Below, piece by piece: positions 1,418 to 21,822 of a DNA stretch of 21,870 bases. The notes beneath the pieces are model-generated. The model did no database searches. It was not told the origin of the DNA and saw only the letters and a program-made list of their open reading frames with translations. The position numbers and the translations under genes were made by a program. The stretch is from the IMG/VR virus record IMGVR_UViG_3300032241_000928, positions 1 through 21,870 of that record. One strand, 5' to 3'. The stretch is from a virus. Numbering within the stretch: position 1 is the first letter of the stretch; the number at the start of each line of letters is the position of its first letter.

Positions 1418-2425
1418 TTAGATGATCTCCGACCAGAAGAAACCAAGGTCAGAAGCAACGACCTTGTTGTCAAAGGCGATTTCACCCTCAACTCGGTCGC
1501 TCTTCAACTCTTCCATGCGGAAGCGGCTGACACCGACGGTCGTACCGAGACCACCCGACACGCCAGTCCACATGAACGTGTACCCAGCGGAGGGGGTCAT
1601 CAGACCCGGGTTCGGTGCGGTGTAGCACAGAAGCGCACCGGAACCGACAGTGAAATCGTAGGACTGAGCGTTGCTGCCCTCGTTCCCCGAGTTCACCACT
1701 GCCTTCGCGACGAGAACGCGGTCCACACCGAACAACTGTGCGAGCAAGTCCTCGGTGACGATTGCACCGGCTTGGGTGTACTTGTAGCGTTCCACCAGAA
1801 GCGGGTGGTTCTTGAGGTTCTGGAAGACCTTGTAGCCGAGAACAAAGGTGTTCGGCTCGTAGCCCGTGTTCTGCAACACGGTAGCCTTCGCAGTCTCAAC
1901 GTCGGCAATCGGGTTCGACTTGTAGGAAGTCGGAGCCGTCTTGTAGTCCGACCACTTGTAGGTCTGACCGTCCGAGAGGGAACCGCCATCTGCAACGCCG
2001 GCGTAGTCACCTGCGGTCCAGATACCCGACTGGAAGTAGTCAGTCGCCCACTGAACCTCACGGCGCAGGAGAAGACGCTGGGTCACAAACTGCGTGGCCT
2101 CCATGTCAGGGTTGAGGGGGTTGTCGGCGTTCGCGCGGGTCTGGTCGCCAATGTCCTTGTGGAAGGCGTAGACGTCCGCGTTGTAGGTTTCCTCGCTGAG
2201 CCCGTAGCCGGAACCTGCGGAGGCAGTGCCGTCTGCACGACGCTGAGCCTCGTCGCGGAACCAGTCGTCCTTCGTGTACTTGAAGTACAGGTTGGACTTC
2301 TTATCCACGGGGATAACCGGGAACACCTTGTCGGCGATGAAGTTGGCAGTGTTCTGAATGTACGCTACTGAAATGTTGGTCAGAAGAGCGTCAATGTGAA
2401 CATTGTTGACGTTGGGTTGTGGCAT
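1418..2425 (-). CDS. Major capsid protein, probable HK97 fold (335 aa)
   Basis: This is the shell subunit of the head. ATG at 2425 has a good Shine-Dalgarno sequence (AAAGGACTAACAA). The N-terminus (LLTNISVAYIQNTANFIADKV, first residues omitted) followed by VFPVIPVDKKSNLYFKY is typical of phage major capsid proteins of this size (about 330 aa). A mid-region LRREVQWATDYF, a TVLQNTGYEPNTFVLG segment and a C-terminal strand region ending in FWSEII also fit. The order scaffold, decoration, capsid (2904-3719, 2443-2901, then this gene) is the standard head module order. There is no N-terminal delta domain, so a separate scaffold is expected and one is present upstream. Confidence 0.9.
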   Translation of the reverse strand: MPQPNVNNVHIDALLTNISVAYIQNTANFIADKVFPVIPVDKKSNLYFKYTKDDWFRDEAQRRADGTASAGSGYGLSEETYNADVYAFHKDIGDQTRANADNPLNPDMEATQFVTQRLLLRREVQWATDYFQSGIWTAGDYAGVADGGSLSDGQTYKWSDYKTAPTSYKSNPIADVETAKATVLQNTGYEPNTFVLGYKVFQNLKNHPLLVERYKYTQAGAIVTEDLLAQLFGVDRVLVAKAVVNSGNEGSNAQSYDFTVGSGALLCYTAPNPGLMTPSAGYTFMWTGVSGGLGTTVGVSRFRMEELKSDRVEGEIAFDNKVVASDLGFFWSEII

Positions 2426-8973: not shown

Positions 8974-9960
8974 TCAGGGGTGCGTGAGTGATCGGGCGAC
9001 GCGCACGACCTCATCTACAACGGCCTTCGCCATCGTCATTTCAGCAGGGCTGTGGTTCTCACCCATAACGTCCGTGAAGTGCGCCTCACGGCTCAACTCG
9101 TCTTGCGCCTTCGCCTTACCTTCTAGTGAAATCGCTTCAGAGCCTTGCACTTGCGCTGCGGCTTGACGGTAGAGGTCTGCCGCCTTGGAGTGGGCGTATC
9201 CTGCTGATTGCCACTTCTCAAGTCTCCGTAGGTTCATCGCTTCTGCCGCCTTGCCATCGGCATCGGCGATCAGGTCGGCGTTCTTGATGACTGCGACTTG
9301 GGACAAGGTGGTGAAGGCGTCGAGGAGCCAATCGAGGTTGCCGAGAAGGTTCTGATGCTTGTCTTCCATGCCAATCTCGGCAAAGACAAGGTAGAGGTCT
9401 TCTAACTTGGGGCGCAAGATCGTCAGGCTCTCTACTGAAATCCCGTTGTTCCACAGAGCCGCCATCGGCTCCGGCATCATCTTTCGTGGTCGGAAGTTGC
9501 AGAGGGCGTGGTCAATCCCCACAATCCTGTCGTGCGAACCGAACAAGAGGTTCTTGGCTCGACGGTCGGCGTTCGCCGTGAGGTGGTCAAATAACCGCAA
9601 AGAGACACCTTGCTGATTGTCAAGGAACCCGTCCTTGTCAAGTTGGTCGCCGTTCTTGCCTTCGATGTAGGGCATGATGACAGTCGTGCTGTTCAGCAAC
9701 CGACAGTCACGGATCGGGGCGTCCATGACTTCTCCGACGCGCGCTGCGAGGTATTCCTGCGCTGCAAGCAACTCAGCAGGATAGAGGCGTCCGGTCTTAT
9801 TGCCGTGCCAGTCTTTGAGGGACTTGACTATTCCACCAGAACCGTCTTGGAACTCAACGAAGACGAAGCCACTGTTCTGATTGCCCTCAAACGCCTCAAT
9901 CGGTTTCGCCGCTGCGATTGAGAAGTCCGTGAACTGCACGAAGTTGGGTCGGAACATCAT
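8974..9960 (-). CDS. HipA/PI3-4-kinase-like protein with helical tail (328 aa)
   Basis: ATG at 9960 (or 9957) directly follows the stop of the upstream gene. Residues about 28-155 form a kinase-like domain homologous to the C-terminal half of the neighbour (9961-11490). Matching pairs are FVEFQDGSGGIVKS, EYLAARVGEVMDAPIRDC, VIMPYIEGK and LFDHLTANADRRAKN...IVGIDH. The catalytic-type residues D132, N137 and D150 have the same spacing (D-x4-N-x12-D) as in the neighbour. The C-terminal half (about 220-328) is helical and similar in style to the TPR-like segments of the GNQ-motif proteins. It may phosphorylate or bind a phosphate ligand. Virion cargo or an effector is inference. Confidence 0.75.
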   Translation of the reverse strand: MMFRPNFVQFTDFSIAAAKPIEAFEGNQNSGFVFVEFQDGSGGIVKSLKDWHGNKTGRLYPAELLAAQEYLAARVGEVMDAPIRDCRLLNSTTVIMPYIEGKNGDQLDKDGFLDNQQGVSLRLFDHLTANADRRAKNLLFGSHDRIVGIDHALCNFRPRKMMPEPMAALWNNGISVESLTILRPKLEDLYLVFAEIGMEDKHQNLLGNLDWLLDAFTTLSQVAVIKNADLIADADGKAAEAMNLRRLEKWQSAGYAHSKAADLYRQAAAQVQGSEAISLEGKAKAQDELSREAHFTDVMGENHSPAEMTMAKAVVDEVVRVARSLTHP

Positions 9961-11490
9961 CTACTTCTTGCTGAAAACGTCATCGGGCCAACCTTGCTGC
10001 ATGGCATAGTTCATGGCTCCCGTGTTCCAACCGTCCATCATCAGATTGAAGTGGTCGGTCATACCGGCTGCTGCGAACTCCGGCTTGAGGGCTTGGAGTT
10101 GGTCGGTCATCGCCGAGATACCTTCCGGCGTGGCCTTGATTAGTGAAAAGTCTGGGTTCTCAGTGGCCTTGTAGTCACTTGTCTCCAACGCTGCACCGTG
10201 GTCAATGCCGACTTCTTTCCCGTCTGCCGAGGTGAACCCGTTTCCGGGGTTGCGGTCGTAGTTATCTACAACCTGATCAAAGAACTTGAGACTGTCAGAC
10301 GCGTCTGCGCCGGTTTCGTCAAAGGTCTTTCCCTCAACCAACGGGCTCATCACTTCGGTTTCACTACCGGGAACATGAACACAGTCACGGATCGGAGAAC
10401 CGAGTGCCTCACCGACACGGGCCGCCAATACTTCTCGATTGGCTAAATCTTTGCCATCACCAAACTCTTCCTGCATGTCCTTGGGTGGTGTGCAGTCTTT
10501 GATAACCGCCTTGGAGCCATCTTCTAGGGTGACAACCCGAATACCGCTATTGACCGCACCGTTTTCAGCACCCTTGAGCGGCCCATCGTCCTTAGCAATC
10601 TTGGTAGAGGTGAGTTTGACGAACTCATTCTTACCCGAGGTCGTAGCGGCATGACCGTCCGTCCACTGGTTGCCGTGGAAATCGTGTCCGGGGACGTCAC
10701 CCTTTTCCACCACGCGCCCAACGATGCTGCGAGCCCATGCGTAGCCTGCATCTCCACCCCACGCGTCCCACGCCACTCGACCATGTGAGGGATAGCCCTC
10801 TTCGTTCTTAGTGAAACCTTGCGCCTTCTTATCAACGGCGTGGCGGTCAAAGTACGCCTTCATGCGCTTGAGGGTGTCAATGGATACGGCGTGACCGTGT
10901 GCAAGGTCTGAAGCCCGTTTGCGACCTACTGGTGTGAACCCATCACCTGCTCGACCCTCTGCAAGCCATTGGAGAGCGCGCTGTGCCGCTGACTGCACTC
11001 CCTTCGGTGGAGTGTAGGTTTCTGCCTTCTCAACCGGCTTGGAGTAGGTTCCACCACGACGCTTGTATTCCTGCACCACCCAGCCGTTTGCGACTGCGGA
11101 GGGATACACATCGAACTTCTTCTTCGCCTCTCGCTTGACACGGTTGTAGAGGTCTTGATCGTCGGGTTCACCTTTGCGGTCAGAGATGACGCCGGTGTAG
11201 TCAGGTTGGTCTGCTTTCGTGACCTCTCCCGGAGCCTTTCCAGCAAGTTCGCCGGTAGCGTCAATGTGTCGGAGTTGGCAGAAGCCTTCTGGATTGTCAA
11301 GATACTTGCCGGCGATGGCGACGCACTGCTGAAAGTCCCCTTCTGAGCCCCAGTCAATCTGCCCACCTGCACCGTTGTTGTACCAGTCAATCAGTCCTTC
11401 GGCGTTGCCCGCCTTGTGGATTTCCACCTCTTGCAACTGACTGAGGCTGCACTCACCCTTGAGGATCAGTTGAATAGAATAGAAATCCAT
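9961..11490 (-). CDS. Modular phage protein: GNQ module plus C-terminal kinase-like domain (509 aa)
   Basis: Modules in order: an N-terminal domain (about 30-90, WYNNGAGGQIDWGSEGDF, later GFCQLRHIDATGE) common in actinophage head-region proteins; a DUF5872-like segment (about 97-150, LYNRVKREAKKKFDVYPSAV); a further phage-associated domain (about 165-255, RHAVDKKAQGFTKNEEGY, later WDAWGGDAGYAWA); the KGDVPGHDFHGNQWTDG motif (263-279); and a HipA/PI-kinase-like domain (about 314-435) with K327/K331, D412, N417 and D430. It is probably delivered with or assembled into the virion, with the kinase-like part acting on a host target, but that is inference. ATG at 11490 has only a weak ribosome-binding site. 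The downstream neighbour repeats the kinase-like domain. Confidence 0.75.
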   Translation of the reverse strand: MDFYSIQLILKGECSLSQLQEVEIHKAGNAEGLIDWYNNGAGGQIDWGSEGDFQQCVAIAGKYLDNPEGFCQLRHIDATGELAGKAPGEVTKADQPDYTGVISDRKGEPDDQDLYNRVKREAKKKFDVYPSAVANGWVVQEYKRRGGTYSKPVEKAETYTPPKGVQSAAQRALQWLAEGRAGDGFTPVGRKRASDLAHGHAVSIDTLKRMKAYFDRHAVDKKAQGFTKNEEGYPSHGRVAWDAWGGDAGYAWARSIVGRVVEKGDVPGHDFHGNQWTDGHAATTSGKNEFVKLTSTKIAKDDGPLKGAENGAVNSGIRVVTLEDGSKAVIKDCTPPKDMQEEFGDGKDLANREVLAARVGEALGSPIRDCVHVPGSETEVMSPLVEGKTFDETGADASDSLKFFDQVVDNYDRNPGNGFTSADGKEVGIDHGAALETSDYKATENPDFSLIKATPEGISAMTDQLQALKPEFAAAGMTDHFNLMMDGWNTGAMNYAMQQGWPDDVFSKK

Positions 11491-11496
11491 GATGAC

Positions 11497-11706
11497 CTAC
11501 CCTGCGGGGAGTGTGTAGTAGTGACCGTTTGACCAGTTCGTTGAGAGGAAGGCGAAGATTTTAGCGGGTTCAGTAAAGCCTCGACGCTTGACAGATGCGA
11601 TAAAGGTCTCACCTACTCCGGTTCCCTTGAGTTCCTTCCCGTCCCATGAGATCGTTCCTGCGATGGTGTTCTGGTCAGTGACGGTGTAGAAGTTGGCAGT
11701 TTGCAT
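11497..11706 (-). CDS. Small phage protein, function unknown (69 aa)
   Basis: ATG at 11706 and TAG stop six bases before the start of the next gene. The protein is beta-rich (FYTVTDQNTIAGTISWDGKE) with an aromatic C-terminus (STNWSNGHYYTLPAG). The segment WDGKELKGTGVGETFIASVK looks like a small enzyme-like or binding motif, but I do not recognise it. Its position immediately upstream of the modular kinase-like gene suggests co-expression. Confidence 0.55.
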   Translation of the reverse strand: MQTANFYTVTDQNTIAGTISWDGKELKGTGVGETFIASVKRRGFTEPAKIFAFLSTNWSNGHYYTLPAG

Positions 11707-11744
11707 ACTGCAAGGTTATCAGAATAGGGAGTAAATCACCAATC

Positions 11745-12161
11745 CTATTGGACGTAGTTCTTCGGGGCCATAGCGAAGATCGCAGTCCAATCTTGCTGTG
11801 GTTGAGAACTTACCGGCGGTGCAGGGAGTTTCTTTCTACCTGCGACCAATCGCCACCTGTTCGCTAGCGGTCGATTACAAGTGCCACAAGTGCGGTCTTG
11901 ACCCCCACTCGCAAACTGACCGTTGTAGGAACCGTCAGGGTTTCTACCAATCCACTGCTGCGGAACCTTGATCGTATTCTGATGACCTGAAGCGCAAGTG
12001 GTCGTAAACAGAGCGTTGTAAGGGTCAAAGTGGACAACGCCCCCTACAGAGTGCTGATTGCCACGAAAGACGTGACCGTGATAGTCACCCTTGATGAACT
12101 CTTCATAGACCCCATCTGGGCCTAACAGTCCTTCTCTAGTGAAATCGTTGCTTGAGGTCAT
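11745..12161 (-). CDS. GNQ-module protein with zinc-binding cysteines (138 aa)
   Basis: Start at ATG 12161, which overlaps the upstream stop (ATGA); the frame extends further upstream but that part is antisense-like. Residues about 22-36 hold the shared module KGDYHGHVFRGNQHSVGG. Further on, a CASGHQ and CGTCNRPL pair of cysteine clusters could bind zinc. The C-terminus is proline-rich. Function unknown, but the module links it to the other proteins of this region and suggests a common destination, perhaps the virion. Confidence 0.65.
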   Translation of the reverse strand: MTSSNDFTREGLLGPDGVYEEFIKGDYHGHVFRGNQHSVGGVVHFDPYNALFTTTCASGHQNTIKVPQQWIGRNPDGSYNGQFASGGQDRTCGTCNRPLANRWRLVAGRKKLPAPPVSSQPQQDWTAIFAMAPKNYVQ

Positions 12162-12415
12162 TGAGCGTCTTGTGAACCGTAGTCGGCGTTGAGCACTGCC
12201 CACGCCCCTTGATTGCGACGAGCGTCCTCAAGAGTGTCGGGGATCATCTCGACCGGATACTTGGAGAGGCGTGCTGATCGCCGCCGACCTATCTTACTTG
12301 GTTGGTATGCGACAGTCCGAGCCGGAGTAGCGAGTTGCTTGAGTAAGTTCTCGGTAAGGAAGTCCTCACCGGAAAGAGGCTTCCCACCATGACCATCACT
12401 AGCAGGCGTAGTCAT
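12158..12415 (-). CDS. Small basic phage protein, function unknown (85 aa)
   Basis: ATG at 12415 with AGAGGA nine bases upstream; it ends in an ATGA overlap with the next gene. The middle is basic (SKIGRRRSARLSKYP) and the C-terminus helical (DTLEDARRNQGAWAVLNADY). I do not recognise a family. A hairpin at 12433-12448 lies immediately upstream. Confidence 0.6.
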   Translation of the reverse strand: MTTPASDGHGGKPLSGEDFLTENLLKQLATPARTVAYQPSKIGRRRSARLSKYPVEMIPDTLEDARRNQGAWAVLNADYGSQDAQ

Positions 12416-12432
12416 AATGGGAAGTCCTCTGA

Positions 12433-12448
12433 CCTAGTGAAAACTAGG
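12433..12448. other. Hairpin with GAAA/TTTC loop across a stop codon
   Basis: CCTAGT and ACTAGG form a perfect 6-bp stem around GAAA. It contains the stop codon (TAG, 12444-12446) of the 467-aa gene and one copy of the dispersed motif (TAGTGAAA). There is no T-run, so a terminator is doubtful. Confidence 0.45.
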
Positions 12449-13847
12449 AGGCGGCAGCCTCAGCGAGAGCCTTTGACGGGCGCATGAAATCGTTGCGGAT
12501 ACTCGACGCCTGAGCGTAGTGGCTTCCAGCAGTGTCCTTTGATGCACCGCTACTTCCACGCTCGGCCTCGGCCTCGTGGGTCTTAGCAATGCCCATGTGC
12601 GCGCCCTGAGCCTGCGTGTAGTGCTTAGCGGCAGTAGCGTGGTCGCCAGCGGCACGGGCAGCGTGACCGGCGGCCATGTTCTTTTCAGCATTTGCGGCGT
12701 ACTGCTTGATCGTGGTCTTCCAACCGCGCATCATGCCCTTCTCACCCGTCTTCGGGTTCACAATGTTCGGGTGGAAACGCATACCGCCGGTGTGTTGGTT
12801 GCCGTAGAACGGGTGTCCGGGCTGTGCGCCGGAACCCGGGCCACCCTTCGTGAAGATGTAGTTCTGGTAAGCAGCCGACTTCTGGAAGTCACGGGTAAGC
12901 AGAGCCTCGGTAGTGAAACCGAACGCCTTGCTCATGTCGTACTCGCTATCGTCTTCCTCTGGGCCGACGTTCTCGCCGTACCACTGGTCAAACTGTGCAG
13001 GCGTGACCATGTTGTCTTCTCCACCGGCGCAGACGGGGCAACCAGAGCCGTTCCCCATGCAAGCAGGGCAAAGAATAAGAGCCATTGCCTTCTCCATCGT
13101 GTCCATTGTGTCCCCCTTTACTCCCCATGATGCGGGCAGTTGGTCTTCCGCGTTCAGGGCCTTTGCCTGAGCGATGATGTGTGCCTTGACCGCATCTGGG
13201 TTCTTGGCGCGTCCGTATGACGAGATAGCGTTCTTGAGGTCGGCAACCGTTGAGATCGGGTAAGAGCCATCTGGCATCGCCTTACCCTTTTCAGCAAGAG
13301 CCTGACGCTCCTTATCCGACACATCGCGCTTAGTGACGTTCTTGTATTGGGCGGCCCAACCCTTCGGCAGGAAGAAGGGGAGGTGAAGTCGCTCGGCAGC
13401 GGCAACTGCGGCGATCTTGTCATCGTCGGTCTTCGCAGCGGCAATCGCAGCCTTGAGGTCTGCGGCAGTGCTGATACCCGCCTTGGCGAGCGTGCGGAGT
13501 TGCTCACTCACGGTCTTAGCGAGGCTGTATTGTTCGGCGGTCTCGGAGGCGAGGATTTCAGCATCACGGAAGCCGGCAAGGGCATTGTTGTATGCAGCGC
13601 GAGCACTCTCCTTCATAAAGGAGTTGGTTGCGACGGCATCGGCGTAGGCAATCTGCGTCGTGCGGAGGATTTCAGTAGCCTTCTGCAACCGGAAGTTGGC
13701 CTCTTCGTTCTTCGCGCCGAGAGTGGCCTCGTTCTCAATGGCCTTGCTGACCTGAGTTGCGGCAATCTTGGCCGCAGCAATAGCGTCAGTCTCACTCTGG
13801 TTTCCACCAGCGATGTTCGTAGGCTGACTGTTAGGAACTTGGATCAT
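12444..13847 (-). CDS. Modular head-region protein with DnaJ-like zinc knuckle and GNQ module (467 aa)
   Basis: ATG at 13847 follows AAAGGAAA. Residues about 20-130 are a long Ala-rich helix or coiled coil. Two copies of a DLK-x-AI...LPxxW module follow (about 138-180 and 205-255). The second (MPDGSYPISTVADLKNAISS, ending LNAEDQLPASW) is a domain common in phage head proteins. Next come CPACMGNGSGCPVCAGG (about 255-275), a half DnaJ-type zinc finger, and the module KGGPGSGAQPGHPFYGNQ. Last is a TPR-like helical region (AGHAARAAGDHATAAKHYTQ). It is probably a capsid-associated or injected protein by its modules and location; this is inference. Confidence 0.7.
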   Translation of the reverse strand: MIQVPNSQPTNIAGGNQSETDAIAAAKIAATQVSKAIENEATLGAKNEEANFRLQKATEILRTTQIAYADAVATNSFMKESARAAYNNALAGFRDAEILASETAEQYSLAKTVSEQLRTLAKAGISTAADLKAAIAAAKTDDDKIAAVAAAERLHLPFFLPKGWAAQYKNVTKRDVSDKERQALAEKGKAMPDGSYPISTVADLKNAISSYGRAKNPDAVKAHIIAQAKALNAEDQLPASWGVKGDTMDTMEKAMALILCPACMGNGSGCPVCAGGEDNMVTPAQFDQWYGENVGPEEDDSEYDMSKAFGFTTEALLTRDFQKSAAYQNYIFTKGGPGSGAQPGHPFYGNQHTGGMRFHPNIVNPKTGEKGMMRGWKTTIKQYAANAEKNMAAGHAARAAGDHATAAKHYTQAQGAHMGIAKTHEAEAERGSSGASKDTAGSHYAQASSIRNDFMRPSKALAEAAAS

Positions 13848-13894
13848 CAGAAGTTTCCTTTCCGGATTACTAAATGCTACACCGTTATTGGTTT

Positions 13895-14299
13895 TTAGCG
13901 ATTACCATTAGCGAGTGCGACAGCCTCTCGCAGGTGTTCGTGTGCGGTCTTGTAGGCGTCCATCGCCATAATCGAGAGGGAACCGGCCTTGTCCGTGTCG
14001 CCGGTCTCGTAGGCGTCTGCTGATTGCTTGCGGTACATCTCGCCTTGGTCGGCAGCGTTCTCTGCGGCAACGACGAGGTCACTCAAGGAGAGGGTCGGGT
14101 TCGCCGGTGCAGCCTTTTCCACCATCAACCAACTCGGCATCTCATTATCGTCACTCCAACGGTAGGGCGAGACATTGGAGGCAACAACGTTATCCACACC
14201 ATCATCAAACCCATCGCTGTCTCCATCGGTGTATGCGTAGGGTGAGACAGGTGAGGTCACAACCTCATCTACTCCATCGTTCTGCCATTGTTGGTTCAT
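13895..14299 (-). CDS. Phage protein with duplicated N-terminal repeat and helical C-terminus (134 aa)
   Basis: ATG at 14299 with AAAGGG upstream. The N-terminal 50 residues hold a tandem repeat, DGVDEVVTSPVSPYAYTD and DGVDNVVASNVSPYRWSD, separated by an acidic DGDSDGFD. The C-terminal half (AAENAADQGEMYRKQSADAY, then AMDAYKTAHEHLREAVALAN) is a TPR-like helical segment similar in style to those in the large GNQ proteins. No family recognised. The 47-base gap downstream has a TAGCAT box (13874-13879) that may be a promoter for the 467-aa gene. Confidence 0.65.
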   Translation of the reverse strand: MNQQWQNDGVDEVVTSPVSPYAYTDGDSDGFDDGVDNVVASNVSPYRWSDDNEMPSWLMVEKAAPANPTLSLSDLVVAAENAADQGEMYRKQSADAYETGDTDKAGSLSIMAMDAYKTAHEHLREAVALANGNR

Positions 14300-14311
14300 G
14301 GTGTAATCCCT

Positions 14312-14749
14312 TTAGTCGTTGAGGGAGGCGGTCAGTTGCCAATCCCATTTGTCGTGCATCTCGATGCGCCCTGCAAGGAAGTTGGCGATGCCGTTCTTGC
14401 CCGTCTGGTTAGCGATCTGGAAGGCCTTGTTCAGACTTTCCAGCACACCAGCGTTGGTCACAATAAGGTCGGACACAAGCGTCTTGTGGTCGTATGAGGT
14501 AATCGGGCCATCACTCACCGATGCGACACTGTTCAGGTCGGACAGCCGGAATGGTGCGACTGCACCAATCTTGCGGAGGCTTTCACCAAGTCCGTCAAGG
14601 CTCTCCCACACGTCGTTGTAGATTTCCTCAAACTTTGCGTGATACTGAGGGAAGTCAGTACCGACAATGTTCCAGTGAAATCCGTGAACGCGATGGTACA
14701 TGACCGTAGCATCAGCGAGACAAGTCGCCAATGCCACAGTCAAGGCCAT
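14312..14749 (-). CDS. dps: Dps/ferritin-like DNA-protection protein (145 aa; 153 aa from the upstream ATG)
   Basis: I prefer the ATG at 14749, preceded by AAGGACGGCTCA; the ATG at 14773 lies six bases downstream of a stop and has no ribosome-binding site. Counting from 14773, the ferroxidase ligands are in place: H33 (HGFHWNIVG), H45 and E49 (YHAKFEEIYND), D60 and E64 (DGLGESLRKIG). These match the Dps pattern (H, H, D/E, D, E) at the correct spacing. Dps dodecamers oxidise Fe(II) with peroxide and bind or shield DNA. In a phage structural region it might protect phage or host DNA during infection or be packaged. There is no obvious DNA-binding N-terminal tail. Confidence 0.85.
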   Translation of the reverse strand: MALTVALATCLADATVMYHRVHGFHWNIVGTDFPQYHAKFEEIYNDVWESLDGLGESLRKIGAVAPFRLSDLNSVASVSDGPITSYDHKTLVSDLIVTNAGVLESLNKAFQIANQTGKNGIANFLAGRIEMHDKWDWQLTASLND

Positions 14750-14776
14750 TGAGCCGTCCTTAGCGATCAGCATGGA

Positions 14777-16231
14777 CTAGCGGTTAGCGAGTGCGGTGGA
14801 CTGGCTGGCCATTTCGCCACGACCAATCTGACCGAGCATACGCTCCGACTGACCGGCGGTGATTGCCGACTTGGAGGCAGCATCTTGAGCGTTCGCAGCG
14901 TCGTTCACATCACCCGTGCGAGAGGCAAGGCGAGCAAGTTGCGAAGCCTGCTGGTTCTCTTCGTAGGTTGAGTTAGCGTTCTGACCGAGCGAGTGTTGCG
15001 TGAGCCCACCGGGAGTTTGCAGTTGCTTTGCGGCTTGTGCGCCGTGGTAAGCAGCCTCGCGGAAGTGGTCTGCGGCTTGGTTGAACTTACCCATTCGCAT
15101 CAAGGTCTGGGCAGCGGAGTTGTGCGCCGTAGCGGCGGCAAGGTGCTCTTCGTGACCGAAGTGCGTCGTGCCCGCACGAACGTTGTGGTGATCGGCAGAG
15201 TGGATGGCGTTCGTGTAGCGGTTGCCACGGAACGGGTGGCCATCATGTTCGCCCGAACCCGGGCCGCCCTTCCAGAACTGAAGAACCCACTCTTCGGTAG
15301 CGTTGTCAATGTCAGTCACGGTTGCGTCCTTTACTAAGAGGCTTTCGCCTGCAATACTACTCTGGCTTTCGGATTTCACTACTCCCGACGCGGTGTCAAG
15401 TGCAGTTTGAGTGTGCGCCTTCTGCGAGAGAAGGAACGCCGGGTGGGTCAGTTTCCAACCCGTCTGGTTGAGATAACCGTTCTGCTTGGGGGCAGTATTG
15501 GTCATCACATCTGCGGCCATCTTGTGCGCGTCGGCAGCGGCCTCATGGTATCCAATAGCCCGCAAGGCACTCGGATACTGACTACTCAACATTCCAGCAA
15601 TCGCTAAGTGACCTTGAGCGATGTTGTTGTGTTCATCTGCGAGGTCGGGGAGTTCGGTATCAAGGGGAACCGATGCACCGGCCTCAAACTTCTCATCAAG
15701 GGCGCGAGAACGATCTGACAAGGAGGAAGCGGCATCTGCCAACTTTCCACCAACGACAAGGTTCTCGGGCAGATTTGCGTCAAGGTATTGCGAACCCATC
15801 TTCGCAACGGACTTACCGACGCTATTAGCGGCAGCGTCGTGGTAATCGGCGGCACCTTGGGCATACTTCCACTCGCGGTCGGCAGGCGTGGAGACGTTTC
15901 CACCACGCGGACCCGCTGCGATGTAAGTAGTCTTTCCGGTAAAGTGCGACTGCACATCACGGTAGGCTTCTGAGGCAGCGTTGTGGTCGCCACTGCGAGC
16001 GATCTGGTTTGCCTTTACAGCAGCAGCGGCAGCCGGACTGGTCTGCGCTTCAGTAGGGACTGCCTTCTGACCGAGGATCTTTGCGGTGGTAGGACTATTG
16101 CCCTTCATGCCACCTTTGACCCAGTTGGAGTGTGCGGTCTGATACTGGTTGCCACGAAACTCGTGTCCGGGCAAGTCGCCCTTCGCGAAGTCAAGCCATG
16201 CCGAGATTTCACTATCAAGGTTGTCTGTCAT
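14777..16231 (-). CDS. Large helical-repeat protein with two GNQ modules (484 aa)
   Basis: Start at ATG 16231 (TGATG overlap with the upstream gene); the frame extends 16 codons further but that part overlaps the neighbour. The first module is near the N-terminus (KGDLPGHEFRGNQYQ, about 17-31) and the second is in the middle (KGGPGSGEHDGHPFRGNRYT). Each is followed by TPR-like helical repeats (GDHNAASEAYRDVQSHF; AAATAHNSAAQTLMRMGKFN). The layout looks like a duplication of a module-plus-helices unit. Function unknown. It probably forms part of, or travels in, the virion, given its place downstream of portal and protease and the shared module. Confidence 0.7.
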   Translation of the reverse strand: MTDNLDSEISAWLDFAKGDLPGHEFRGNQYQTAHSNWVKGGMKGNSPTTAKILGQKAVPTEAQTSPAAAAAVKANQIARSGDHNAASEAYRDVQSHFTGKTTYIAAGPRGGNVSTPADREWKYAQGAADYHDAAANSVGKSVAKMGSQYLDANLPENLVVGGKLADAASSLSDRSRALDEKFEAGASVPLDTELPDLADEHNNIAQGHLAIAGMLSSQYPSALRAIGYHEAAADAHKMAADVMTNTAPKQNGYLNQTGWKLTHPAFLLSQKAHTQTALDTASGVVKSESQSSIAGESLLVKDATVTDIDNATEEWVLQFWKGGPGSGEHDGHPFRGNRYTNAIHSADHHNVRAGTTHFGHEEHLAAATAHNSAAQTLMRMGKFNQAADHFREAAYHGAQAAKQLQTPGGLTQHSLGQNANSTYEENQQASQLARLASRTGDVNDAANAQDAASKSAITAGQSERMLGQIGRGEMASQSTALANR

Positions 16232-17547: not shown

Positions 17548-17774
17548 CAGTTCCCCTTAGCGAGTTGCGACTTCATGTAGTCATCAACGGTCTGACCGCC
17601 ATCTGCGAGGGTCTGTGCGATGCCCTTGATGCCATCTTCGGTGCGAGAGGTTGCCCAACCCTCAACTCCGAGTTGCTGAAGTGTCCACAGTCCACCGATG
17701 AGTGCGACCCGCCACTTGCGGTCAGAGGAAACCTCACCTCCGACTGGATGCGAGTTCCAGACGATCTCGGCCAT
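17547..17774 (-). CDS. Small phage protein, function unknown (75 aa)
   Basis: ATG at 17774 overlaps the protease stop by one base (TGATG), and the gene ends with the same kind of junction, so it is translationally coupled on both sides. Segments SDRKWRVALIGGLWTLQQLG and DGIKGIAQTLADGGQTVDDY suggest a beta turn then helices. No family recognised. Its position right after the protease suggests a head-assembly accessory. Confidence 0.65.
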   Translation of the reverse strand: MAEIVWNSHPVGGEVSSDRKWRVALIGGLWTLQQLGVEGWATSRTEDGIKGIAQTLADGGQTVDDYMKSQLAKGN

Positions 17775-19609
17775 CAGTTCTCTTCTCCGTAGTTGGTGAT
17801 AAAGGTGTCAGGTGTGGCTTCGTCGGTAGGGAGATCAACCTCAATCCCTGCGCCGGTTCCACCAATGCTGTAGCCCCTAATCTTGCCCTTCTTGACAAGT
17901 TCCCAAGCCCACGGTTCCCACTTGACGCCGAGGAAAGCAGTTCCGGCAGGGAAGGCGGTCTTCACGATTTCACCAGTATCGGCCTTGAGCATCGGAACTT
18001 CGATAGGGTGCGGCCAAGTCAAGAGTTCGACCCACTTGCCAGCGACAATCTCAACGTTGTGTTGGAGGCGAATGTCTCGATCACCATTCTCGACGTAGCC
18101 CCAGAGTGCCTTTTGGAGTTCTTCAGTATCCGTCCACTCGTTATGAGCGTCCATGCGGTTCGGAACATACCAAGGGCCGAGGGTGTAGCGGTTCTCAATG
18201 CTCTTCTGAACCGTTCCGGGGATTTCACTAGTCTTCGCCGCAACCAAGACTTCTGGCTCTTCTTGCTCAATGATCTCCATGTCCACCGGCTTCTCGTCCT
18301 CTTCCTTCCCCCAATCGGGGCTGTCCACATGGACGGAAGACACGAAGGGGCCGGACTTCTCGATTTCATCGGGAGTTGCTGAACGGCGGCTCTTGTAGTA
18401 GTTCTCGGCAGAGGCGGCTAACTCAACGCGCACCGGAACCATGTTGAACTTGCACCAGCCGTTCGGAGCGCAGGTGACTGCGACCCAATCGCATGATCCA
18501 CTGTCGGAACAAGCGATGCAGTTGGCGCAGGTTCCACCTGAGGTCTGGAAGGGGCTGTATGAGGTGTAGGCGGCATCAGTCGTAGGCATACGGCCCAAGT
18601 CATCAACCATTTCGTCAAGTGCCTTAGCGAGTTCTACTTGCCAAGGGTCAAGACCTTGCTTCCAATCATCGCCATACACGCTGCTGTCGCTTGAGGAAGA
18701 CGATGAAGAGGACGAACTGCTGCTTGAATCGTCTTCACTCGACGATGAGGAACTGCTACTCGACGAGGAACTCGACGATGAGGAAGAACTACTAGAGGAA
18801 CTGTCATCATCACTGCTACTTGAGGAACTGTCACTGCTGGAACTTGACGATGAACTGCTGCTCGACGAACTTGACGAAGACGAACTACTGCTACTTGAGG
18901 ACGAACTGTCATCATCGCTAGACGAGGAACTGCTGGAACTGCTTGACGATGAAGACGTGCTGGACGAAGATGAGGAACTCGCATCTTCAGTGTCTTCGCT
19001 TGAGGTGGAACTTGAGGGGCTACTTGACGAAGAGGAACTTGAGGAACTGTCCTCACCCTTTGCGTCTTCCACCGCTTGCAGGATCGCTGCGATGGTTGAG
19101 GGGTCAAGTTGGATTTGGCGCGCACCATCAGTGGTCGTATCATCAGGGGCGTTATAGCCGCCATTGAACGTAAACGGGAACCCGTAGGCCTTGTCGAGTG
19201 GCTGGCAAGTCTCTTGCTCAGTGGTGGAACCGCAGATAAGACAAGCGTTGGAACCACCGAGGTCGTTCTGGCTCTTCGTGAATGGGTGGGGAACTGAGGC
19301 AAGACCCTTTGCGATGTTGCGGGCGATCAGTCGCTTTTCAGCGTTCTGCGAGAGATGACCGTTGCCGAACACGCTCTTCGTCATGCGGTCCCAGATGGGG
19401 TTGTCATCACGGGTGTCGTTTGGTACGATCACCAGAGAGGCATCACTCCCCTCACCGTGCGAAACGGCGAGTAGGTCGGCAGTGACATACCCTTCCTTGA
19501 GAAGCGTGGCTGCACTCTCACGGATTTCCGCAGGGAGACTTTCCTTCGCAACGATTTCACTAAGAGAAGCGTCCGTAAGTGCGTCCAAGACGTTCATAAG
19601 TTCGGCCAT
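17774..19609 (-). CDS. XkdF-like prohead protease with long poly-serine insertion (611 aa)
   Basis: ATG at 19609 with AAGGAG. Residues 1-185 form an N-terminal domain with CLICGSTTEQETC (a possible zinc site). Residues about 188-309 are almost entirely Ser with Asp/Glu interruptions, written with all six Ser codons. A cysteine cluster follows (CANCIACSDSGSC, later CAPNGWC). The last ~190 residues match the XkdF-like phage serine protease domain (YTLGPWYVPNRMDAHNEWTD, then LQHNVEIVAGKWVELL, then FPAGTAFLGVKWEPWAWELV, then GKIRGYSIGGTG). Usual XkdF proteins are shorter and lack the Ser tract. It would process scaffold and capsid during prohead maturation. The portal upstream fits the usual order. 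Confidence 0.75.
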   Translation of the reverse strand: MAELMNVLDALTDASLSEIVAKESLPAEIRESAATLLKEGYVTADLLAVSHGEGSDASLVIVPNDTRDDNPIWDRMTKSVFGNGHLSQNAEKRLIARNIAKGLASVPHPFTKSQNDLGGSNACLICGSTTEQETCQPLDKAYGFPFTFNGGYNAPDDTTTDGARQIQLDPSTIAAILQAVEDAKGEDSSSSSSSSSSPSSSTSSEDTEDASSSSSSSTSSSSSSSSSSSSSDDDSSSSSSSSSSSSSSSSSSSSSSSSSDSSSSSSDDDSSSSSSSSSSSSSSSSSSSSSSEDDSSSSSSSSSSSSSDSSVYGDDWKQGLDPWQVELAKALDEMVDDLGRMPTTDAAYTSYSPFQTSGGTCANCIACSDSGSCDWVAVTCAPNGWCKFNMVPVRVELAASAENYYKSRRSATPDEIEKSGPFVSSVHVDSPDWGKEEDEKPVDMEIIEQEEPEVLVAAKTSEIPGTVQKSIENRYTLGPWYVPNRMDAHNEWTDTEELQKALWGYVENGDRDIRLQHNVEIVAGKWVELLTWPHPIEVPMLKADTGEIVKTAFPAGTAFLGVKWEPWAWELVKKGKIRGYSIGGTGAGIEVDLPTDEATPDTFITNYGEEN

Positions 19610-19665: not shown

Positions 19666-19779
19666 TCAGCGTGGTCGCGGCTGTGCGACAGGGACGCCGA
19701 GGGTCTTATTCCTCAAGATAGGGCGTGACTTTTTAGCAACACCGACAGGGTGGGGAACCTTCCGAATACGAACGGTCAC
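19666..19779 (-). CDS. Small basic ORF coupled to the portal gene (37 aa)
   Basis: A GTG overlaps the portal stop by four bases (GTGA) and opens a 37-codon frame ending at 19666. The product is strongly basic and proline-rich (TVRIRKVPHPVGVAKKSRP, later PVAQPRPR). It fills most of the otherwise empty 166-base gap between portal and protease. The coupling supports translation; there is no homology that I can recognise. A chance ORF is possible. Confidence 0.4.
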   Translation of the reverse strand: MTVRIRKVPHPVGVAKKSRPILRNKTLGVPVAQPRPR

Positions 19780-21413
19780 GATGTTGGCCCTTGATCATTG
19801 ACGAGTGGCCCGTTCATTCCGGTTGGCTTTGGCTTTCCACCTTTACCTTGCGGAGGAACTTGTCCGGTCTGTCCGGGATAGCCCGCACTCGTGATGTTCG
19901 CTTGTATTCCACTACCACCCGACTGATCGTTCAGGCCGCCTTGTGGGTTCTTCACACCCGTAGGCTTCGTGTTTCCTTGCGGACTAGCGACTGCGCCAGC
20001 GTGAGGTGAACTCGTCCCGACGAAACTCGGATTACCTTGCGTCATCACTTGTTCTGGTGCGACATACCCGTAGCGTTGGTTGTCAGCAGCACCTTGAGGC
20101 TCTGCTTGGAACGGTGGGAGACCCGCCAACTCACGAAGGTAGTCCTCAAGGTTGTTATCTGGTGTAATAAGTTGTGCAGAGGCAAGGTTCGCAATAAATC
20201 CGCCGAGTTCTAACAGGTCAATGGCATTGACTTGACCGTAGGTGAGGGTCGGGCAACGTGCTGTATCAAACCCGTTGAGTGCCATGAGGCGTGGAATAGC
20301 GTGGCTGTTGAAGACTTCGGCAATAAGCCTGATCCAACTTTCCACCGCAGCCATGAACAAGTCCACCTTGCTTGACCCGAGTGCGAACGAACCGACGCTC
20401 TCGTGTCCGAGCATGATAAAGTCAGCCAGACAAGTCATCGCAATCTGCTGGTTGTAGCGAGTGATGATCTGGTCGGTGTTGAACTGTCGCGCTCCACCAG
20501 AGTTCAGCAACTTGAAGTCCACTAGTTGCTTGCCGTTCTCATCAAACATCATCGGGAGAATGACGCCTTCGGTCTCGTTGCGCTTTACTCCACGAACAAT
20601 GGCTTCCATCGCTCGGAGTGCGCCTTTTTCAGCAGGAGTGGCATCTCTACCCATCCAGTCGGCGGGAACGTAGCCAACGGGAAGACCTGCGAGGTCGCGC
20701 TCAACACCGATTGCCTCAAACTCTTCGATACGCCGCTTGTAATACCAAGCCTTGAACGACGAGCGAAGGATTGACCGACCTTCGGGGTTTCCACGCGCAG
20801 AGGTGGTACGGAATAAGAGGCCCTTCTCAATGGGAATGACGTTCAAGCGACCCGTCGTGGGGTCACGCTGGATCATGGCTTTTATTCCACCACTCTCGTC
20901 AAACTGCCACTGCCACAGGCTGTCCTGCGAGCGCATGGCAATCTTGCGCCAGCCAATCTTGTTATCACTAAACTTTGACCGCATCGAGGGGTCTTTCTGA
21001 TCCGGCCCCTTACGCTGCTTATAGACAATCTCAAAGAACGACCAACCGTAGGTCAGGAACGACACGATGGCAATCATCAACTCGTGCCACGACGTGCTCA
21101 TGTCGTCCATGCACTCTTGCACGAAGATTGCAGCCTTATCGTCATCGTCAAGTGGTGTTTCACCTGTCGGGTCGGTGTACGGATCAACCCGCCAGTCCAC
21201 TTGGAGAATGACGCGCTCAATGGCGAAGAGGATCGCACCGATAATCGGGTCGTTCTCTGCCATGTCCCGATAGGCAGTAAGAGACTGTCGGCCTCGGAGT
21301 TGAGGTAGAACATCGTCAATGACGAAGCCACCCGTGCGCCACAGACCTGTAGCACCGAGTTCGCTAAAGTTATCTACTTGAGGGAGTACGTCCTCTGGAT
21401 TACTTTCGGGCAT
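19776..21413 (-). CDS. Portal protein, Mu gp29/DUF935-like (545 aa)
   Basis: Start at ATG 21413 (GGAG five bases upstream); a TTG further upstream in the frame is less likely. The portal ring forms the DNA entry channel at a capsid vertex. Support comes from LTAYRDMAENDPIIGAILFA, the ERVILQVDWRVDP segment, a C-terminal wing region (AIVSFLTYGWSFFEIVYKQR) and the central GVKRNETEGVILPMMFDENG. Length and motifs fit the DUF935 portal family. The last ~90 residues are Gly/Pro/Gln-rich and disordered. The gene overlaps the WhiB gene by 14 bases and precedes the protease, as in typical head modules. Confidence 0.85.
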   Translation of the reverse strand: MPESNPEDVLPQVDNFSELGATGLWRTGGFVIDDVLPQLRGRQSLTAYRDMAENDPIIGAILFAIERVILQVDWRVDPYTDPTGETPLDDDDKAAIFVQECMDDMSTSWHELMIAIVSFLTYGWSFFEIVYKQRKGPDQKDPSMRSKFSDNKIGWRKIAMRSQDSLWQWQFDESGGIKAMIQRDPTTGRLNVIPIEKGLLFRTTSARGNPEGRSILRSSFKAWYYKRRIEEFEAIGVERDLAGLPVGYVPADWMGRDATPAEKGALRAMEAIVRGVKRNETEGVILPMMFDENGKQLVDFKLLNSGGARQFNTDQIITRYNQQIAMTCLADFIMLGHESVGSFALGSSKVDLFMAAVESWIRLIAEVFNSHAIPRLMALNGFDTARCPTLTYGQVNAIDLLELGGFIANLASAQLITPDNNLEDYLRELAGLPPFQAEPQGAADNQRYGYVAPEQVMTQGNPSFVGTSSPHAGAVASPQGNTKPTGVKNPQGGLNDQSGGSGIQANITSAGYPGQTGQVPPQGKGGKPKPTGMNGPLVNDQGPTS

Positions 21414-21822
21414 CTCTACTCCGTGCGTCAATGGCTTGGCTAGCCTCTATAAGACTACTACCCGATTTCACTAGGGTAATAATGCGCCGCCTTTGACTGA
21501 GTGAGTGTCCACCCCAGATGCCGAACTCTTCCTGCAACCCTGCTTCTAGGCACTCATAGCGTACAGGGCATTGTAAGCACAGTTTCCTAGCCGGAACGAG
21601 GTGCTTGCCACCCGGCGTTTCAGCACGGTCAGGATACATCGTGTTCAGGTGCTTGGCTTCTGGCACGTCACGGCATAGGGCTTGTTTCGTCCATGCCGGC
21701 GGGATCATCGCCATCAGCAAGTCTCGACCGATCTTGATGAGGTCTATGTCCTCATAACGGGCTCTGAGTTGCCGTTCGTAATCGTCTTCGGGTGCTTCGG
21801 CCTCACTCGTCATCTTCGCCAC
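21400..21822 (-). CDS. WhiB-family Fe-S transcription factor (140 aa)
   Basis: The WhiB signature is complete: C50, then C82-x2-C85-x5-C91 (KLCLQCPVRYEC) to hold a 4Fe-4S cluster, followed by GIWGG (101-105) and a basic RRR tail that contacts sigma factor and DNA. The family is restricted to actinobacteria and their phages, so it sets the host range. Start is GTG 21822, or ATG 21813 with a GGTGG ahead of it. Phage WhiB proteins, such as WhiB of TM4, can repress host whiB genes and affect superinfection. Here the gene overlaps the portal gene, so it is expressed with the late head operon. Confidence 0.9.
   Translation of the reverse strand: MAKMTSEAEAPEDDYERQLRARYEDIDLIKIGRDLLMAMIPPAWTKQALCRDVPEAKHLNTMYPDRAETPGGKHLVPARKLCLQCPVRYECLEAGLQEEFGIWGGHSLSQRRRIITLVKSGSSLIEASQAIDARSRDARK

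Follow-up and report, generated by a model that had tools for sequence, protein, structure and literature searches.

The DNA analysed here (the window) is IMG/VR record IMGVR_UViG_3300032241_000928, a fragment of 21,870 bases from an uncultivated phage that spans the portal gene to the major capsid protein (MCP) gene, and four of the proteins encoded between these ends share a short peptide module, the GHxFxGNQ tag. On the minus strand, the gene order begins with a WhiB-like gene, the portal, an XkdF-type prohead protease, two unknown genes and 14777-16231, continues with a Dps/ferritin-like gene, 13895-14299, 12444-13847, 11745-12161 and 9961-11490, and ends with the kinase-like gene 8974-9960 and, further downstream, an exonuclease and the MCP (1418-2425). 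Because of this order, all five modules lie between the prohead protease and the capsid protein. The head genes and the tag-bearing genes are:

19776..21431, minus strand: portal (phrog_113 / Portal_Mu), by profile matches; upstream end of the head-gene cluster
17774..19609, minus strand: XkdF-type prohead protease (Peptidase_S78_2) with a Ser-rich linker; candidate for the proposed processing enzyme
14777..16231, minus strand: two-unit helical cargo protein with two tags, by homologue comparison and AlphaFold2 (AF2)
12444..13847, minus strand: helical protein of 467 amino acids whose tag precedes the C-terminal unit, by homologue comparison
11745..12161, minus strand: small Cys-rich (zinc-like) one-tag cargo protein, by homologue comparison
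9961..11490, minus strand: DUF5872 and phrog_2859 domain, tag and PI3/PI4K/RIO-like kinase domain, by profiles, AF2 and Foldseek
1418..2425, minus strand: major capsid protein (phrog_1005), by profile match; downstream end of the cargo interval

The sequence-only reading had described five in-frame copies of the module in these four genes, and all of them are present. The copies and the associated leaders are:

16145..16183, minus strand: tag copy 1, KGDLPGHEFRGNQ, in 14777-16231; disordered in the AF2 model (residues 12-64)
15218..15271, minus strand: tag copy 2, KGGPGSGEHDGHPFRGNR, in 14777-16231; disordered in the AF2 model (residues 286-337)
12795..12848, minus strand: tag copy 3, KGGPGSGAQPGHPFYGNQ, in 12444-13847
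12054..12092, minus strand: tag copy 4, KGDYHGHVFRGNQ, in 11745-12161
10666..10704, minus strand: tag copy 5, KGDVPGHDFHGNQ, in 9961-11490, between the folded N-terminal domain and the kinase-like domain; predicted local distance difference test (pLDDT) below 50 at residues 260-287
16184..16231, minus strand: N-terminal leader helix of 14777-16231, MTDNLDSEISAWLDFA, of class DSEIxxWVxxAKGD; AF2 helix 3-16
15272..15319, minus strand: inner leader helix of 14777-16231, VTDIDNATEEWVLQFW, the counterpart of the N-terminal end in stand-alone homologues; AF2 helix 307-320
12093..12161, minus strand: N-terminal leader of 11745-12161, MTSSNDFTREGLLGPDGVYEEFI, missing where relatives have the unit fused
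11455..11490, minus strand: leader of 9961-11490, MDFYSIQLILKG, resembling by sequence comparison the MDFRxIxxILKGD leaders, with no GHxFxGNQ after it

The window copies are not chance matches: GHxFxGN[QR] did not occur in 2,000 shuffles of the window tag proteins, and the DNA pattern read backwards gave no match in 33 records, versus 4-24 forward copies in most of them, a copy number seen in many related records. The similarity previously noted among the copies at the DNA level does exist, but it is only what the amino acids impose, as the codons of the invariant residues follow background usage, which also rules out a DNA-level repeat; in fact, 278 module copies have 262 different 24-nt cores. 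Synonymous positions are thus free, and selection therefore acts on the peptide. The carrier proteins, which had been called otherwise unrelated, are mostly so, except that the helical units behind copy 2 of 14777-16231 and behind the copy of 12444-13847 are weakly related, both matching L058:4864-5451 and L044:2186-4420 (L labels denote IMG/VR stretches retrieved by tag pattern scans). Several full-length homologues of 12444-13847 carry the tag in the same place. Additionally, the inner TVTDIDNATEEWVLQFWKGG of 14777-16231 has its counterpart in MTDNLDIVPEWVITLEKGG, the N-terminus of stand-alone homologues, and because of this match of its inner leader the protein is recognised as a fusion of two one-tag units.

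The tag, of 13-18 residues, has the consensus V-x-K-G-D-x-x-G-H-x-F-H-G-N-Q, whose strict core letters are partly imposed by the search patterns, whereas a hydrophobic residue at -7, D at -3 and an aromatic residue at +8 (counted from the G of GH) lie outside the pattern and are not imposed by it. It is placed either at the N-terminus of small proteins or as a spacer inside proteins of up to 2,096 amino acids. In more than 90 cases the N-terminal tag is preceded by a leader of ~15-32 amino acids that ends at the tag, and these leaders group into a few families (M-DFRxIxxILKGD, MSGFTTxELLYPLTKGD, DSEIxxWVxxAKGD, MTNPFSTxxLLKSxSNYPVAKGD and NLxPTWxxAxEILKGD). Long proteins hold up to eight tags in 1,985 amino acids, with a median tag spacing of 243 amino acids. 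The AF2 models of the 9961-11490 and 14777-16231 proteins place the tags in disordered stretches between folded domains and the leaders in helices. Since the hydrophobic moment of the leaders was not clearly above that of shuffles (mean percentile 0.32), the leaders are called helical on the basis of AF2, and amphipathicity is not claimed. Small Arg-rich proteins of L098, L153 and L171 carry GHxFYGNQ(Y/H) after a basic stretch, with no K-G-D junction; they may be internal proteins that bind DNA, or the motif may serve another purpose in them.

Regarding the cargo, the domain behind the tag of 9961-11490 is kinase-like (Foldseek matches to RIO2, PI4K and VPS34, with E from 4e-6 and a low whole-model TM score), and a search of the PDB with the helical cargo of 14777-16231 gave no match with E below 0.1. 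Across the whole set, the cargo includes ADP-ribosyltransferase exoenzymes (ADPrib_exo_Tox, 3.9e-17), PI3/PI4K and HipA-like kinases, and DRAT, RelA/SpoT and acetyltransferase domains. When the proteins were cut at their tags, 114 segment clusters were obtained, 17 of which include segments that follow a first tag as well as segments at inner positions. The 11745-12161 unit, for example, is a separate gene in the window, L079, L049 and L069 and the last unit of a 791-amino-acid protein in L017/L058, where homology starts immediately ahead of the tag, the leader having been lost on fusion; likewise, L048, L105 and L107 have the tag-plus-kinase unit of 9961-11490 as a small gene of its own, and in L059, L010 and L114 it forms the end of long proteins. 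The module is thus the exact point at which units are shuffled, joined or separated. Neither the polyproteins among the tag carriers, nor the spread of the tag far beyond actinophages, nor the conserved junction described below had been foreseen by the sequence-only reading.

The KGxxxGHxFxGNQ DNA pattern was found in 111 IMG/VR stretches, the loci of that scan yielding 180 non-redundant proteins with 278 modules, and looser IMG/VR scans returned many more tag-bearing contigs. A wide occurrence in non-phage cytosolic proteins, which would have spoken against a role in the phage head, was not observed: an exact scan of 84,980 prokaryote genomes gave five matches, all attributable to chance (HGHSFTGNQ in the BioA transaminase, and other reading frames), and a cellular or prophage module was rejected on this basis. 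Only chance matches were found in 50,697 phage records. As for the earlier statement that similar tags occur in head-region and MuF-type proteins of actinophages, fusions to MuF, portal and protease proteins do exist in uncultivated phages, but tblastn with two consensus tags and the second family described below gave nothing convincing in isolated phages, actinophages included, although the low-complexity filter could hide Gly-rich tags. A literature search for GHEFHGNQ or GPGSGNFGH retrieved no paper. The module is therefore regarded as a protein-level, virus-specific element that is widespread in IMG/VR.

In the lineage of the window, inner tags have a hydrophobic residue two positions before K in 148/155 cases, versus 25% for other K residues, and a G after K in 149/157, versus 7%, which defines a Phi-x-K-G junction (Phi, hydrophobic); F-A, preceding tag copy 1, is the Phi-x of this junction. 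The residue before the invariant G is nearly the same throughout one phage and changes from phage to phage (K, L, A, R, D, E or N), as in L227 (R 5/5), L274 (L 8/8), L262 (F 7/8) and L219 (A 3/3), although the set holding these four loci is biased in that it includes loci picked by that very residue. Among loci retrieved by a residue-agnostic scan, same-locus pairs were identical in a fraction of 0.89, versus 0.38 between loci (0/2,000 shuffles). This combination of uniformity within a phage, variability between phages, a position directly before an invariant Gly element and little conservation upstream is what would be expected of a cleavage site matched to the phage's own protease. Additionally, 13/13 proteases of the window lineage carry Phi-x-K-(S/N/D) just before the catalytic domain, a possible self-cleavage site, and the protease of Arthrobacter phage Kovu does not.

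The same behaviour was seen, more cleanly, in a second tag family, (x)GGPGSGNFGHxGRPGxxGGS, with 205 copies in 103 loci (L357-L467), carried by portals, minor head proteins, head maturation proteases and effector-like proteins. Its residue x, which the scan left free, varies little within a locus (N, E, K, D, L/A, H or Q), with identity of 0.87 within versus 0.19 between loci (0/2,000 shuffles), and the eight residues before x are hardly conserved, an observation that speaks against whole segments having been copied recently. L and A occur together in some loci. In L421, second-family leaders end in ILE|GG and LFE|GG, near the L/I-X-E of T4. A link between the two families through a common residue within loci gave no signal (23/40 identical versus 0.65 expected), because almost all of the residues are L or A, and no second-family copy was found in 398 genomes of the phylum of the organism of L117 (Saccharibacillus). 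The MuF-ParB-ADP-ribosyltransferase protein L353:15027-18749 has other recurrent-looking linkers, KHLAGEHDQKDHGHS and KKHLGPGPHPSGTPQEVHG, which are perhaps further tag families.

The association of the tag with head genes was evaluated in 32 tag-bearing records, in which the PF14550 protease was found in 19, the phrog_113 portal in 18 and the phrog_1005 MCP in 19. The distance to capsid genes had been proposed as a check, and in the ten records with both protease and MCP, separated by ~18-28 kb, 122/147 tags lie between the two, versus ~60 expected by length. Head proteins themselves also carry the tag: in phages whose head genes are of other kinds, the portal of L034 has it in its C-tail and the S78-type proteases of L024, L066 and L353 have tags directly behind the catalytic domain, and in L121 a tag plus a domain is inserted into the linker of the XkdF protease. 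L353, which belongs to these phages with other head genes, further encodes a fusion of MuF, tag and an Alt-like ADP-ribosyltransferase (phrog_802, 1.6e-11), and in Micromonospora phage pMLP1 a homologue of the window cargo kinase is fused behind the minor capsid domain Phage_min_cap2 (1.6e-75). The earlier suggestion that the module directs cargo into the prohead or binds a head protein is consequently supported in part, and well supported as regards head association, by location, by head-protein fusions and by the pMLP1 kinase. A search with PF05065 and PF04586 in 20 non-K records gave no capsid match and two weak protease matches.

From these observations we infer that tagged proteins are packaged, that they are cut just ahead of the G, which protease does so, and that the effectors are ejected and act on the host, and we lean towards the reading that the module is a portable head-cargo tag that probably combines T4-like targeting with processing by the phage's own prohead protease. 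Its first part would be the junction, Phi-x-K|G in the window lineage, cut by that protease, for which the XkdF-type (S78_2) enzyme is a candidate because it co-occurs with the tag and has in its own sequence a Phi-x-K site resembling the junction. The second part would be a disordered docking element, G-D-x-x-G-H-x-F-(H/R)-G-N-Q-(Y/W), retaining the protein in the prohead through the core, shell, portal or protease. An N-terminal tag after a short helical leader would act like the targeting sequence of T4 internal proteins that gp21 removes, while internal tags would separate cargo domains, so that a single packaged chain could, once cut, yield several independent effectors, to be ejected later along with the DNA. 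Several points weigh against this reading. A few C-terminal tags have no junction, which suggests that docking and cutting are separable; the seven invariant residues downstream of the junction exceed the known needs of prohead proteases; some records have tag clusters away from head genes; and some phages with an XkdF protease have no tag, such as Kovu, whose portal is 51% identical to that of the window and whose protease-MCP interval is ~5 kb. Moreover, the MCP-like protein encoded by the KAKR lineage lacks KAKR, sought there as an MCP cleavage site, and shell maturation may therefore have a specificity other than that of the tags.

The long conserved core in disordered linkers and the C-terminal copies lacking a junction would also fit a docking tag that is never cut, in which all of the module, with the residue before the G included, binds to the shell, scaffold, portal or protease as its partner in the head and anchors the cargo, the polyproteins remaining intact or being cut elsewhere. 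Several copies per chain would then give avidity, and the residue before the G could track a phage-specific partner. However, upstream of that single residue the second family shows no conservation, which is the pattern of a cut site, inner tags stand between complete folded domains, and one and the same unit is found either as its own gene or within a long protein; we therefore regard uncut docking as unlikely. The exchange of units exactly at the module, together with its disorder, could instead reflect a flexible Gly-rich linker kept as a spot for domain recombination, with neither targeting nor cleavage. Such a passive hinge is improbable, since the constraint is on particular amino acids and not on DNA, plain linkers retain neither GHxFxGNQ across unrelated phages nor a record-specific preceding residue, and one-tag proteins carry an N-terminal module with no second domain to join. 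It is very improbable that the tag acts at infection and not in assembly, as a signal for passage through portal and tail or for recognition in the new host: the cargo does resemble host-directed effectors and flexible spacers between small domains would aid the passage of long chains, but the tag is also found on the portal and the prohead protease, which act in assembly, and a phage enzyme accounts better than a host factor for a junction that varies by phage.

The proposed head-cargo tag was compared with known systems. T4 gp21 cleaves after L/I-X-E and the phiKZ protease after S/A-X-E (PMC9026906). As with the capsid targeting sequence of T4 IPI-III and Alt (PMC9026906), a short N-terminal element is present on otherwise different proteins, here in the form of the leaders with inner tags in addition, an ADP-ribosyltransferase (Alt in T4) is among the cargo, and cleavage after a short Phi-x-(charged) motif by a prohead protease is predicted. 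In contrast, the T4 element is N-terminal only, with Glu before the cut and with no GHxFxGNQ core, inner repeats or polyproteins, whereas the present element may also be internal or C-terminal and its residue varies by phage; instead of L/I-X-E, the window lineage has Phi-x-K|G and other records have L, A, R, D or N, with E in the second family of L421. The effectors resemble those of MuF polymorphic toxins (PMC5576092) and polyvalent proteins (PMC5512222), which, in the parts of these sources considered, also combine ADP-ribosyltransferase and RelA/SpoT domains in head-associated multidomain proteins with strong domain shuffling; there, however, these are attached to a MuF, portal or peptidase domain, while here a tag of 13-18 residues occurs on many effectors encoded by separate genes. 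No such module was found by text search of PMC5576092 or in the passages considered of PMC5512222. The four window proteins have no MuF match, unlike the L353 fusion, and they hold one or two units only, while relatives reach the polyvalent format (up to 8 tags, ~2,000 amino acids, ADP-ribosyltransferase and kinase in one chain). The giant phages phiKZ and SPN3US, with their ejection-protein propeptides, likewise have a large internal load and many head proteins cut by the prohead protease at a short motif, in the sections considered of PMC9026906 and PMC10052503, but with S/A-X-E and no conserved element behind it, and those sections mention no island of cargo genes delimited by tags that would lie between the protease and the MCP. 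By analogy, the function would thus resemble T4 targeting plus gp21 processing, and we found no known family that has this tag, repeats it internally or shows a junction residue specific to the phage. Encapsulin cargo-loading peptides are short, in some cases present in several copies, and bring enzymes unrelated to one another into a shell of the HK97 fold; compared by description only, they differ in not belonging to phages, in being uncleaved and usually C-terminal, and in sequence.

To our knowledge, the proteins carried in the head and delivered at infection have been established in no more than a few model phages. Should the module be a packaging and processing mark, the head cargo of many uncultivated phages could be listed from sequence, including effectors such as ADP-ribosyltransferases, kinases and alarmone synthetase-like domains, the specificity of the prohead protease could be predicted phage by phage, and a short peptide would be available for loading chosen proteins into phage shells. 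Tentatively, and with slightly more doubt than confidence, a general packaging-and-processing code of tailed phages, not described before, may be proposed in which interchangeable tags (GDxxGHxFxGNQ and GGPGSGNFGHxGRPGxxGGS) mark every head-bound cargo unit and the residue before the tag serves as a password for the phage's own protease; the genome of an uncultivated phage would then suffice to read off its head proteome and the specificity of its protease.

Other features of the window concern the protease and the neighbouring genes. Before its catalytic domain, the protease (17774-19609) has a poly-serine/aspartate linker of more than 100 residues and Cys-rich stretches, which are kept in relatives. 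The S78_2 region of this protease is matched by phrog_14859 and phrog_1530, named RNA ligase and DNA methyltransferase, names probably carried over from fusion partners; phrog_1530 also matches that of L413. The WhiB-like regulator gene (21400-21822) adjoins the portal and fits an actinobacterial host. Finally, the Dps/ferritin-like gene (14312-14773) is untagged, lies inside the cargo interval and is 56-81% identical in several relatives, and its product is perhaps a DNA-protecting head protein.

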